Assembly (NCBI RefSeq): GCF_001718415.1
Contig: NZ_CP013378.1
Location: 3,286,001 to 3,350,000, forward strand
Direction: 5' to 3'
From: Burkholderia pseudomultivorans
GTDB lineage: Bacteria; Pseudomonadota; Gammaproteobacteria; Burkholderiales; Burkholderiaceae
Length of the DNA: 64,000 nucleotides
In this document: in pieces, positions 57,647 through 60,070 of the stretch
How the letters are laid out: the number at the start of each line of letters is the position of its first letter
How positions within the stretch are numbered: position 1 is the first letter of the stretch
The notes under the pieces: model-generated
Databases searched by the model: none
Told to the model about the DNA's origin: nothing
What the model saw: only the letters and a program-made list of their open reading frames with translations
Translations under genes and position numbers: made by a program

Positions 57647-60070
57647 TTACTCGCCGTAGAAGTTTTGCGCCCCCGCAAAGTTGTCGAACTTCGTGTATTG
57701 CCCCAGGAACGTGAGTCGAACGGGGCCGATCGGACCGTTACGCTGCTTGCCGATGATGATTTCGGCCGTGCCCTTGTCGGGGCTGTCCGGGTTGTAGACT
57801 TCGTCGCGGTAGATGAACAGGATCACGTCCGCATCCTGTTCGATTGCGCCCGATTCACGCAGGTCCGACATCACCGGGCGCTTGTTCGGCCGCTGCTCGA
57901 GACCGCGGTTGAGCTGCGACAGCGCGATCACCGGCACGTCGAGTTCCTTGGCCAGACTCTTCAGCGAACGCGAGATTTCCGAGATTTCGGTTGCCCGGTT
58001 CTCGCCCTGCGACGAGCCCGACATCAGCTGCAGATAGTCGACGATGATCAGGCCGAGCTTGCCGCACTGGCGCGCCAGACGCCGCGCGCGCGAGCGCAGC
58101 TCCATCGGGTTCAGGCCGCCCGTTTCGTCGATGAACAGCTGCGCCTCGCTCATCTTCTGCACCGCATGCGTCAGCTTCGGCCAGTCTTCGTCCGTCAGGC
58201 GGCCGGTACGCATCCGGTGCTGGTCGAGCCGGCCGATCGAGCCGAGCATCCGCATCACGAGCTGGGTGCCCGGCATTTCCATCGAGAACACTGCGACCGG
58301 CAGGCCGTACTCGACCGCGACGTATTCGCCGATGTTCATCGAGAACGCCGTGTTGTGCGTCACGACGTAATCGTCGGTCACGTACAGCCGCGACGGATGC
58401 GAGACCGAAATGCACTGCGTGGCCGTCCGGCGCGTCGGCTCGATGCCGACGATGACCGGCATCTTGCGGCGTGTGCGCCCGCCCGTGAGACGCTCGCGCT
58501 TGCCCTCGAACAGGAACAGGCTCTGCGGGTCCGGATGGCTGATCGTGCATACGTAAGCCGTCGCACCGGCCTTGCGCTCGCCGCCGACCGTGAAGCTCGT
58601 CGCCTTTTCGGCGACCTGGCACCACGCCCCGAGCGAGCGCGCCAGTTCGCGCACGTCGTTCGCCAGTTGCGCACTGGCGGTCGAATAACGCACCGTCCCC
58701 CACGATTCGACCCAGCCGTCCGTGTCGAGCAGCCCGCGCAGCAGGTCCAGTCGCGCGTCCTTGTCCGCATCGAGGTAAATGCGCGGGATGAACTTGTCGT
58801 AGCTCGTCCTGCCCCATACCCCGAGCCGCTCGAGCGCCGCCTTGAGCGGATTGGCGGACGGCCGGGCCTCGTCGGCCGTCGACGGCCGGCGCTTGATGCG
58901 CCAGTCGTACTGGCCCGCGTATTCGAGCTCGAGCGACGCGTCGACGCGCGCGCGCATCCGATTCAAGGTTTCCTCGGCCTTCACGCTGAAACGCACGGCC
59001 GTACCGCCGAGCGCGCCGTCGCCGAGCAGCGCGCCGAGCACCCACGGATCGACGGGCAACGCCTCGCGGTGACCGAACTCGCCGCTCGGCATGTCGATCC
59101 ACAACCGGTTCCGGTAGCGCTCGCGCGTCAGTAGCGTGCGAATCTCCGCGGTCGACAGCACGCGCGGCTTTTCCCATTCGCGGAAATGTACGCACCACAG
59201 GTGCTCGTCGCAGCATTCGGCCGAGCGCCCGTCCGAAAAGCGGACCCGATAGACCTGGCGTTCGCCCTGCGGGTAGATGCCCGTCACGATCGACGGCGCG
59301 CCGTCGACCGATGCAAGCGCGTCGCCGACCGCCAGTTCGCCCATCGGCTTCCAGCCCGTCAGCGTCCTGACGCGCGCGTCGAGCGGCTGGGCCTTGCCCA
59401 TCGACGGCCGCCCGGCCACGATGATCAATTCGCCGCCATGCATCCCCGACGTCATCCGGTCGAGGTCGACGAAGCCCGTCGGCGTGCCCGTGACGTCGCT
59501 CGGGTTCGCGGTGTGGTACAGCGTGTCGATGCGCTCGACGACCTGCGTGAGCAGCGGTCCGATCTCGAGGAAGCCCTGGTTGCCGCGCGCGCCCTCTTCG
59601 GCGATCGAGAACACCTTCGACTCGGCCTCGTCGAGCAGCTGGCGGACTTCCTTGCCCTGCGGATTGAACGCGTCGGCCGAGATTTCGTCGGCGACCGACA
59701 CGAGCCGGCGCAGCACCGCGCGGTCGCGCACGATTTCCGCATAGCGGCGGATGTTCGCGGCGCTCGGCGTGTTCTGGGCCAGCGCATTCAGGTAGGCGAG
59801 CCCGCCGACGTCCTCGGCCTTGCCGGACGTCGTCAGCGCTTCGTACACGGTCACGACGTCGGCCGGGCGCGTCGCCGCGATCAGCCGGCCGATATGCTCG
59901 TAGATGATCCGGTGGTCGTAGCGGTAGAAGTCGCCCTGCGACAGGAAGTCGGCAATCCGGTCCCATGCCGCGTTGTCGAGCAACAGGCCGCCCAGCACCG
60001 ACTGTTCGGCTTCGACCGAGTGCGGCGGGACTTTCAGCGAATCGAGTTGGGGATCTTGCGGCGCGTTCAT
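57647..60070 (-). CDS. dnaB: replicative DNA helicase DnaB, intein-containing
   Basis: The 807-aa precursor is DnaB (extein 460 aa, the usual size) interrupted by a 347-aa intein. DnaB is the hexameric helicase that unwinds DNA ahead of the replisome. The N-terminal domain covers residues 1-180. The P-loop GRPSMGK ends at K226, then resumes after the intein with T574 (TAFSMNIGEYV), followed by VFSMEMP, IIVDYLQLMSG and LSQLNRGLEQRPNKRP. The intein splits the ATP-binding GKT, so the unspliced protein should be inactive. The gene follows the rplI terminator, consistent with its own promoter, which I could not define. Confidence 0.96.
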   Translation of the reverse strand: MNAPQDPQLDSLKVPPHSVEAEQSVLGGLLLDNAAWDRIADFLSQGDFYRYDHRIIYEHIGRLIAATRPADVVTVYEALTTSGKAEDVGGLAYLNALAQNTPSAANIRRYAEIVRDRAVLRRLVSVADEISADAFNPQGKEVRQLLDEAESKVFSIAEEGARGNQGFLEIGPLLTQVVERIDTLYHTANPSDVTGTPTGFVDLDRMTSGMHGGELIIVAGRPSMGKAQPLDARVRTLTGWKPMGELAVGDALASVDGAPSIVTGIYPQGERQVYRVRFSDGRSAECCDEHLWCVHFREWEKPRVLSTAEIRTLLTRERYRNRLWIDMPSGEFGHREALPVDPWVLGALLGDGALGGTAVRFSVKAEETLNRMRARVDASLELEYAGQYDWRIKRRPSTADEARPSANPLKAALERLGVWGRTSYDKFIPRIYLDADKDARLDLLRGLLDTDGWVESWGTVRYSTASAQLANDVRELARSLGAWCQVAEKATSFTVGGERKAGATAYVCTISHPDPQSLFLFEGKRERLTGGRTRRKMPVIVGIEPTRRTATQCISVSHPSRLYVTDDYVVTHNTAFSMNIGEYVAVEYGLPVAVFSMEMPGTQLVMRMLGSIGRLDQHRMRTGRLTDEDWPKLTHAVQKMSEAQLFIDETGGLNPMELRSRARRLARQCGKLGLIIVDYLQLMSGSSQGENRATEISEISRSLKSLAKELDVPVIALSQLNRGLEQRPNKRPVMSDLRESGAIEQDADVILFIYRDEVYNPDSPDKGTAEIIIGKQRNGPIGPVRLTFLGQYTKFDNFAGAQNFYGE
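58352..59392 (-). mobile_element. class 3 intein with LAGLIDADG endonuclease, in the DnaB P-loop
   Basis: Residues 227-573 of the DnaB precursor. The intein begins with Ala (AQPLDARVRT), not Cys or Ser, and ends with THN before Thr+1. The class 3 triad is present: W292 in block B (DEHLW, with H290 two positions before), C553 in block F (QCISVSHPSRLYVTDDY) and T571 in block G (VVTHN). The endonuclease motifs LLGDGALGG (348-356) and LLDTDGWVE (447-455) are 99 residues apart, with a block D-like KFIPRIY between. In class 3 inteins C553 acts first in place of residue 1. Removal leaves an intact P-loop. Confidence 0.95.
58706..59029 (-). other. LAGLIDADG (DOD) homing endonuclease core of the dnaB intein
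   Basis: The two motifs at 59003-59029 (LLGDGALGG) and 58706-58732 (LLDTDGWVE) each keep the catalytic Asp before Gly. The intervening sequence is in frame and without stops. The enzyme would cut intein-free dnaB alleles at the P-loop codons. Activity is inferred from motif integrity. Confidence 0.8.

Follow-up and report, generated by a model that had tools for sequence, protein, structure and literature searches.

How does a cell replicate when the P-loop of its replicative helicase is split by a long insert, and how did the insert come to be there? The question is raised by a 64,000-nucleotide stretch of the Burkholderia pseudomultivorans genome (contig NZ_CP013378.1, positions 3,286,001 to 3,350,000; hereafter the window), in which the frame of dnaB, the gene for the replicative helicase DnaB, carries 347 extra residues between the GK and the T of its Walker A motif. 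Our analysis makes it very likely that this insert is a class 3 intein, both active and mobile, residing in a chromosomal dnaB. The Burkholderia group includes opportunistic lung pathogens, and an essential single-copy replication gene that seemingly needs splicing would be a possible target for splicing inhibitors. No Burkholderia DnaB intein was met in a literature search covering titles, the starts of abstracts and passages, which did not reach Tori and Perler 2011 or InBase, where earlier betaproteobacterial listings are possible. The word Burkholderia is also absent from the main text of a review on inteins in human pathogens.

An in-frame insert in the Walker A motif of DnaB

The junctions of the insert read IVAGRPSMGK/AQPLDARV and DDYVVTHN/TAFSMNIG. 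The insertion point thus lies between the Walker A Lys and Thr, which is the DnaB-b (P-loop) site, and the limits of the insert are exactly those given in the initial annotation (Table 1). Pfam recognizes the DnaB N domain and a DnaB_C domain split into two stretches with a LAGLIDADG domain between them, and the product scores 1000.3 bits against the NCBIfam model PRK07004 (cut-off 834). Removal of the insert had been said to restore a DnaB of normal size, and this holds: the two exteins sum to 460 aa, the size of the empty alleles of relatives given the same Met.

Alignment with insert-less DnaB of relatives, proposed beforehand, was carried out on a genus sample of 65 genomes that included the window's own. 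A C-extein match was present in 64, and 63 could be read across the site (a contig end truncates the locus in G025, and G057 gave no match). Fifty-two of these are empty and 11, the window among them, are occupied. Counted from the preceding stop, every empty allele has 463 uninterrupted codons, or 460 aa if translation starts at the same Met. GK/T stands at the same point in each, worded PSMGK/TAFSMN in 45 and PSMGK/TALSMN in seven. The insert measures 347 aa in eight genomes and 346 aa in three, and none of the 11 frames is interrupted by a stop. A DNA line-up of 29 loci, nine occupied (including the window's own, L097) and 20 empty, showed a seamless insertion: AAG or AAA precedes the intein and AC(N) follows it, with neither duplication nor loss, and the flanks match base for base. 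A thirtieth locus, L101, which reads TAFSMNV, was compared as protein only. A frameshift, named beforehand as a possible refutation, and an assembly error are both ruled out by the ten other genus genomes that carry the insert in frame; a chance open frame is ruled out by base shuffling, as only 1 of 2000 shuffles of the insert stays open. The observation of an insert in dnaB is therefore confirmed.

The source genome (7.96 Mb, 3 contigs) contains a single strong DnaB_C match in a Pfam search (305.6 bits, in two stretches of the window dnaB frame) and three much weaker ones of 29.6, 27.2 and 21.5 bits, two of which are slightly above the cut-off of 27. No second DnaB, free of the intein, was found in this genome by a C-extein search at E <= 1e-60, which matched one place only, and no second intein of the same family was found at E <= 1. 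Because there is one strong DnaB match and its Walker A is split, replication can soundly be taken, from the sequence, to depend on splicing, and the cell probably cannot replicate before the intein is excised. Extra DnaB-like proteins (54-68% identity to the C-extein, frames of 471-581 codons) occur in genus genomes G012, G015, G022, G035, G046 and G055; they perhaps derive from prophages, and these six genomes hold no match to the window intein.

Class 3 residues and an endonuclease domain

In intein numbering, precursor residues W292, C553 and T571 become W66, C327 and T345; H346, N347 and T+1 (precursor 574) come directly after the last of them. These residues and the Ala1 start all agree with the initial annotation, and its assignment to class 3 is supported: among relatives of solved structure, sequence comparison places class 3 DnaB inteins nearest (the top three of five matches), along with the gp41-1 intein, and the Trp-Cys-Thr (WCT) triad lines up with that of Mch DnaB-1. 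Position 1 has no Cys, Ser or Thr nucleophile; Ala stands there in 80 of 80 aligned sequences and in 117 of the 120 close proteins, which are the best 120 of 2603 matches and are all close relatives. The His-Asn end and Thr+1 are kept in all 120. The 80-sequence alignment, which omits L020 (cut by a contig end), draws on a relatives set of 80 loci kept of 92 found. Where NCBI names of relatives are shown, most read 'replicative DNA helicase'.

An endonuclease domain that the initial annotation did not mention takes up over half of the insert (residues 96-300, by the boundary set here). It scores 29.7 bits against Pfam LAGLIDADG_3 (cut-off 22.5), and among the best 120 proteins its acidic residues are kept in 118 (D125) and 120 (D223). 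The AlphaFold2 (AF2) model of the intein has a predicted local distance difference test (pLDDT) score of 92.5, and a structure search with it identified the whole predicted fold as an intein with endonuclease of the PI-SceI type. Class 3 inteins had been described as uncommon, a statement that needs softening: a passage of PMC7891396 counts 1701 in the nr database, 82.5% of them with LAGLIDADG motifs, and the window intein itself recurs in the family, as described below.

Splicing is what class 3 chemistry would predict for such an insert. C327 would attack the Lys226-Ala1 bond, the N-extein would be transferred to Thr+1, Asn347 would cyclise with the aid of His346, and a normal bond would then join the exteins, rebuilding the Walker A GKT in a 460-aa DnaB. 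In the precursor the P-loop is interrupted between Lys and Thr, at the very point where ATP-Mg is held, and DnaB function would presumably be lost without splicing. The excised intein's endonuclease is predicted to cleave DNA: it would cut intein-free dnaB within the conserved P-loop sequence, after which repair of the cut would copy the intein into the empty allele.

Distribution and signs of mobility

In a draw of 398 genomes from the family, 46 carry the intein (E <= 1e-30), in six of 25 genera, with one genus (label g2) supplying 27 carriers. For 45 of them the surrounding frame has the size of DnaB (807-837 codons); the match in G737 is only 37% identical and lies in a longer frame. An even draw across the phylum gave nine of 398 genomes (E <= 1e-10). 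The nearest named relative is B. pseudomultivorans LMG 26883, with an intein identity of 99%. The window intein is thus a well-supported class 3 intein at the P-loop of DnaB, full length and probably mobile, and it recurs in the family of Burkholderia.

Within the genus, occupancy is scattered. It needs 10 changes on a C-extein DNA tree of 63 genomes, compared with a mean of 10.3 for shuffled labels (257 of 500 shuffles as low), and likewise 10 on the N-extein tree. The nearest extein is an empty allele for nine of the 11 occupied genomes. The inteins of G016 and G051 show a synonymous difference from others of about 0.69-0.94 and their exteins one of 0.23-0.38 (pairs with the distant G014 excluded); a synonymous excess of the intein is also found in other pairs, such as G005-G043, and is absent in the close pairs G000-G029 and G060-G036. 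Protein trees were built from the window and 34 of the 80 loci. In them the inteins of Dyella, which belongs to the Gammaproteobacteria, and of Paludibacterium fall inside a Burkholderia/Trinickia/Paraburkholderia clade (100, starred), while the Dyella C-extein groups with Lysobacteraceae (96, starred). The ratio of nonsynonymous to synonymous divergence (dN/dS) over 55 pairs is 0 to 0.22 for the splicing segment and 0.06 to 0.31 for the endonuclease segment, indicating purifying selection on both. Taken together, the scattered occupancy, synonymous excess, tree discordance and low dN/dS favor repeated horizontal invasion, apparently by a working homing endonuclease, and the fold, conservation and distribution all suggest that the intein has spread.

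Several observations weigh against reading the insert as an active, mobile class 3 intein. The Pfam model Hom_end remains below its cut-off (17.6 vs 21.1 bits), and neither Pfam nor NCBIfam lists a generic intein splicing model for the dnaB product at E <= 1. The three exceptions at position 1 among the best 120 proteins are a gap, one Ser and one Cys. The C-extein tree is weakly resolved, with 8 of 60 inner branches starred, and the starred branches force only four changes; the protein trees were built by a quick method and have long branches that drew a tool warning. Lastly, purifying selection on the endonuclease could come partly from its packing against the splicing domain.

Alternative explanations

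A second cysteine, Cys61, raises the question of whether splicing is conditional. Cys60 precedes it in 114 of the 120 close proteins. Cys61 itself is kept in three of the four phage or plasmid loci read among 449 matched records, with Val in its place in L190, the one of the six distant matches (L186-L191) that could be read at this position. The invariance of ECCDEHLW in the 80-sequence alignment is partly circular, this being one of the six retrieval patterns, and conservation of the second cysteine rests instead on the 120-protein set and the phage and plasmid loci. According to a passage of PMC7891396, class 3 inteins generally lack a conserved residue at this position (N3:7), those characterized having Gly or Asp and that study's own intein Ser. 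Passages of PMC6195587 describe a P-loop class 3 DnaB intein of Mycobacterium smegmatis that H2O2 inhibits by way of a disulfide between Cys118 and Cys48, the mycobacterial DnaBi1 having Asp62 at the block-B position and Cys48 for its redox switch.

Based on these observations, the intein could be mobile and at the same time serve as a switch, acting through C327 and C61 (and C60) to restrain DnaB when the cell meets oxidative or metal stress. The fixed cysteines and the mycobacterial precedent speak for such a switch, but we consider it unlikely. Intein residues 1-59 contain no Cys and so offer no equivalent of Cys48, one of the four phage or plasmid relatives lacks C61, and catalysis or folding alone may account for the conservation. 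Mobility by itself also explains the patchy distribution and the conserved endonuclease with no benefit to the host needed. Cys61 is a lead toward a conditional switch and not evidence for one. A further proposal, which we likewise consider unlikely, is that the inteins at the DnaB P-loop in Burkholderia and its relatives constitute a class 3 subfamily of their own. Its active site would have two fixed cysteines, C327 and Cys61 (the latter usually accompanied by Cys60), next to His64 and His346, and splicing could be stalled if these formed a disulfide reversibly or bound metal at a Cys/His site. If true, a mobile element would put replication of the Burkholderia cepacia group under direct redox or zinc control, with a cysteine pair unlike the mycobacterial switch.

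An old intein inherited vertically in Burkholderia, with many losses and little recent homing, would fit the pairs in which intein and extein synonymous divergence are alike (G000-G029, G060-G036), and an occupancy tree alone cannot separate gain from loss. We nevertheless find this history improbable, given inteins in G016 and G051 with about two to three times more synonymous divergence than their exteins (and pairs like G005-G043), empty alleles as nearest exteins, the cross-class tree discordance and an endonuclease still under constraint. An inactive or misassembled insert, with splicing lost or a sequencing artefact and DnaB working in its long form, is most improbable: class 3 intein pseudogenes do exist (Arsp-FB24, in a passage of PMC3196547), but here all catalytic residues are kept, dN/dS is low, the frame is intact in 11 genomes and the Walker A of the only strong DnaB match is split.

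Features of the locus and other hosts

Table 1. Features of the dnaB locus in window coordinates
Feature	Coordinates	Strand	Evidence
dnaB intein-containing precursor, 807 aa	57647..60070	-	Pfam DnaB and DnaB_C; NCBIfam PRK07004
N-extein, residues 1-226, ends GRPSMGK (Walker A through Lys)	59393..60070	-	Aligned to empty alleles
Class 3 intein, 347 aa, residues 227-573	58352..59392	-	Sequence alignments; AF2 model, pLDDT 92.5
C-extein, residues 574-807 and stop codon, starts with Walker A Thr (+1)	57647..58351	-	Translated frame
Predicted homing endonuclease domain of LAGLIDADG type, spanning roughly intein residues 96-300 (limits set by analyst), acidic D125 and D223	58493..59107	-	LAGLIDADG_3 above cut-off; profile alignment to PI-SceI; fold match
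Trp of WCT triad, block B12, intein residue 66	59195..59197	-	80/80 aligned; 120/120 close proteins
Presumed first nucleophile, the WCT-triad Cys in block F4 (intein residue 327)	58412..58414	-	80/80; 120/120
Thr-His-Asn intein end (block G5 triad Thr, penultimate His, terminal Asn)	58352..58360	-	80/80; 120/120
Cys61, block B7, three residues before block-B His64; CxxH replaces TxxH/DxxH	59210..59212 (derived by arithmetic)	-	120/120 proteins; 3/4 phage/plasmid loci

The flanks of dnaB are ordinary housekeeping genes: those for ribosomal proteins L9 and S6 lie upstream, and downstream come one for a DUF47/PhoU_div protein and one for a phosphate transporter.

Judged by C-extein identity, 70 of the 80 kept loci lie in DnaB and 10 (L075-L077, L079-L085) in other proteins. 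Pfam typing of the first 300 C-extein residues of the latter (E <= 1e-4) gave SNF2 in five (one below cut-off), a RecD-like helicase in one and no match in four. The +1 residue is T in all 80 loci, and GK precedes the insert in all 79 with a visible N-junction. With GK/T junctions in DnaB and in SNF2 or RecD-like hosts, the insertion point is therefore the Walker A GK/T across several P-loop families; a passage of PMC5050341 terms the Lys/Thr point a classic P-loop insertion.

Loci L024 and L027 have C-extein frames of 652 and 655 aa, and many of the proteins P0069-P0118 (about 950-1,260 aa) match PF14890. Several related DnaB proteins thus have the class 3 intein at the P-loop and, apparently, another insert of intein type further along, a layout known from DnaB of M. 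smegmatis. The L027 intein, from a metagenome-assembled genome labelled Chitinophaga pinensis, closely resembles the Malikia intein (L029), and the label may reflect a binning error. Five plasmid records (H22-H26, from enterobacteria or an unassigned bacterium) each hold a relative of the intein at 36.3% identity; the host gene is annotated traD in H22 and is unannotated in the other four.

Comparison with known systems

The genus offers a natural experiment: at one and the same base, some related species have the intein and others lack it, the endonuclease is conserved, and there are signs that the intein has passed from one bacterial class to another. Homing, loss and any conditional splicing could therefore be tested outside mycobacteria. 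The mycobacterial counterparts, M. smegmatis DnaBi1 and the M. leprae DnaB intein, are likewise class 3 inteins at DnaB site b in the P-loop. DnaBi1, however, is a mini-intein without endonuclease that has Ser+1, a block-B Asp (DxxH) and Cys48, whereas the window intein is full length with a LAGLIDADG domain and has Thr+1, CxxH and no Cys48 equivalent. PI-SceI, the yeast VMA intein, shares the intein and endonuclease fold but has a different host protein, 19% identity and a class 1 mechanism with Cys1.

Jumbo-phage DnaB inteins are a further likeness. That of the Xanthomonas phage LucasX (MW825358) is full length with a GK/T site and WCT-type ends and lies in a gene annotated by its depositors as an intein-containing DnaB; compared along the entire length of the window intein, the two are 38.5% identical. 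The class 3 intein of the Deinococcus radiodurans Snf2 protein also starts after GK with Ala-Gln and ends THN/T, a likeness read from the cloning primers in a passage of PMC7664689; any placement of it in the same subfamily would depend on those primer letters, and its host differs. Finally, the IcmO intein of Burkholderia vietnamiensis G4, which differs in being a mini-intein with Cys+1 hosted by IcmO instead of DnaB, is a class 3 intein of the same genus and has been shown to splice, as a passage of PMC5222942 reports.
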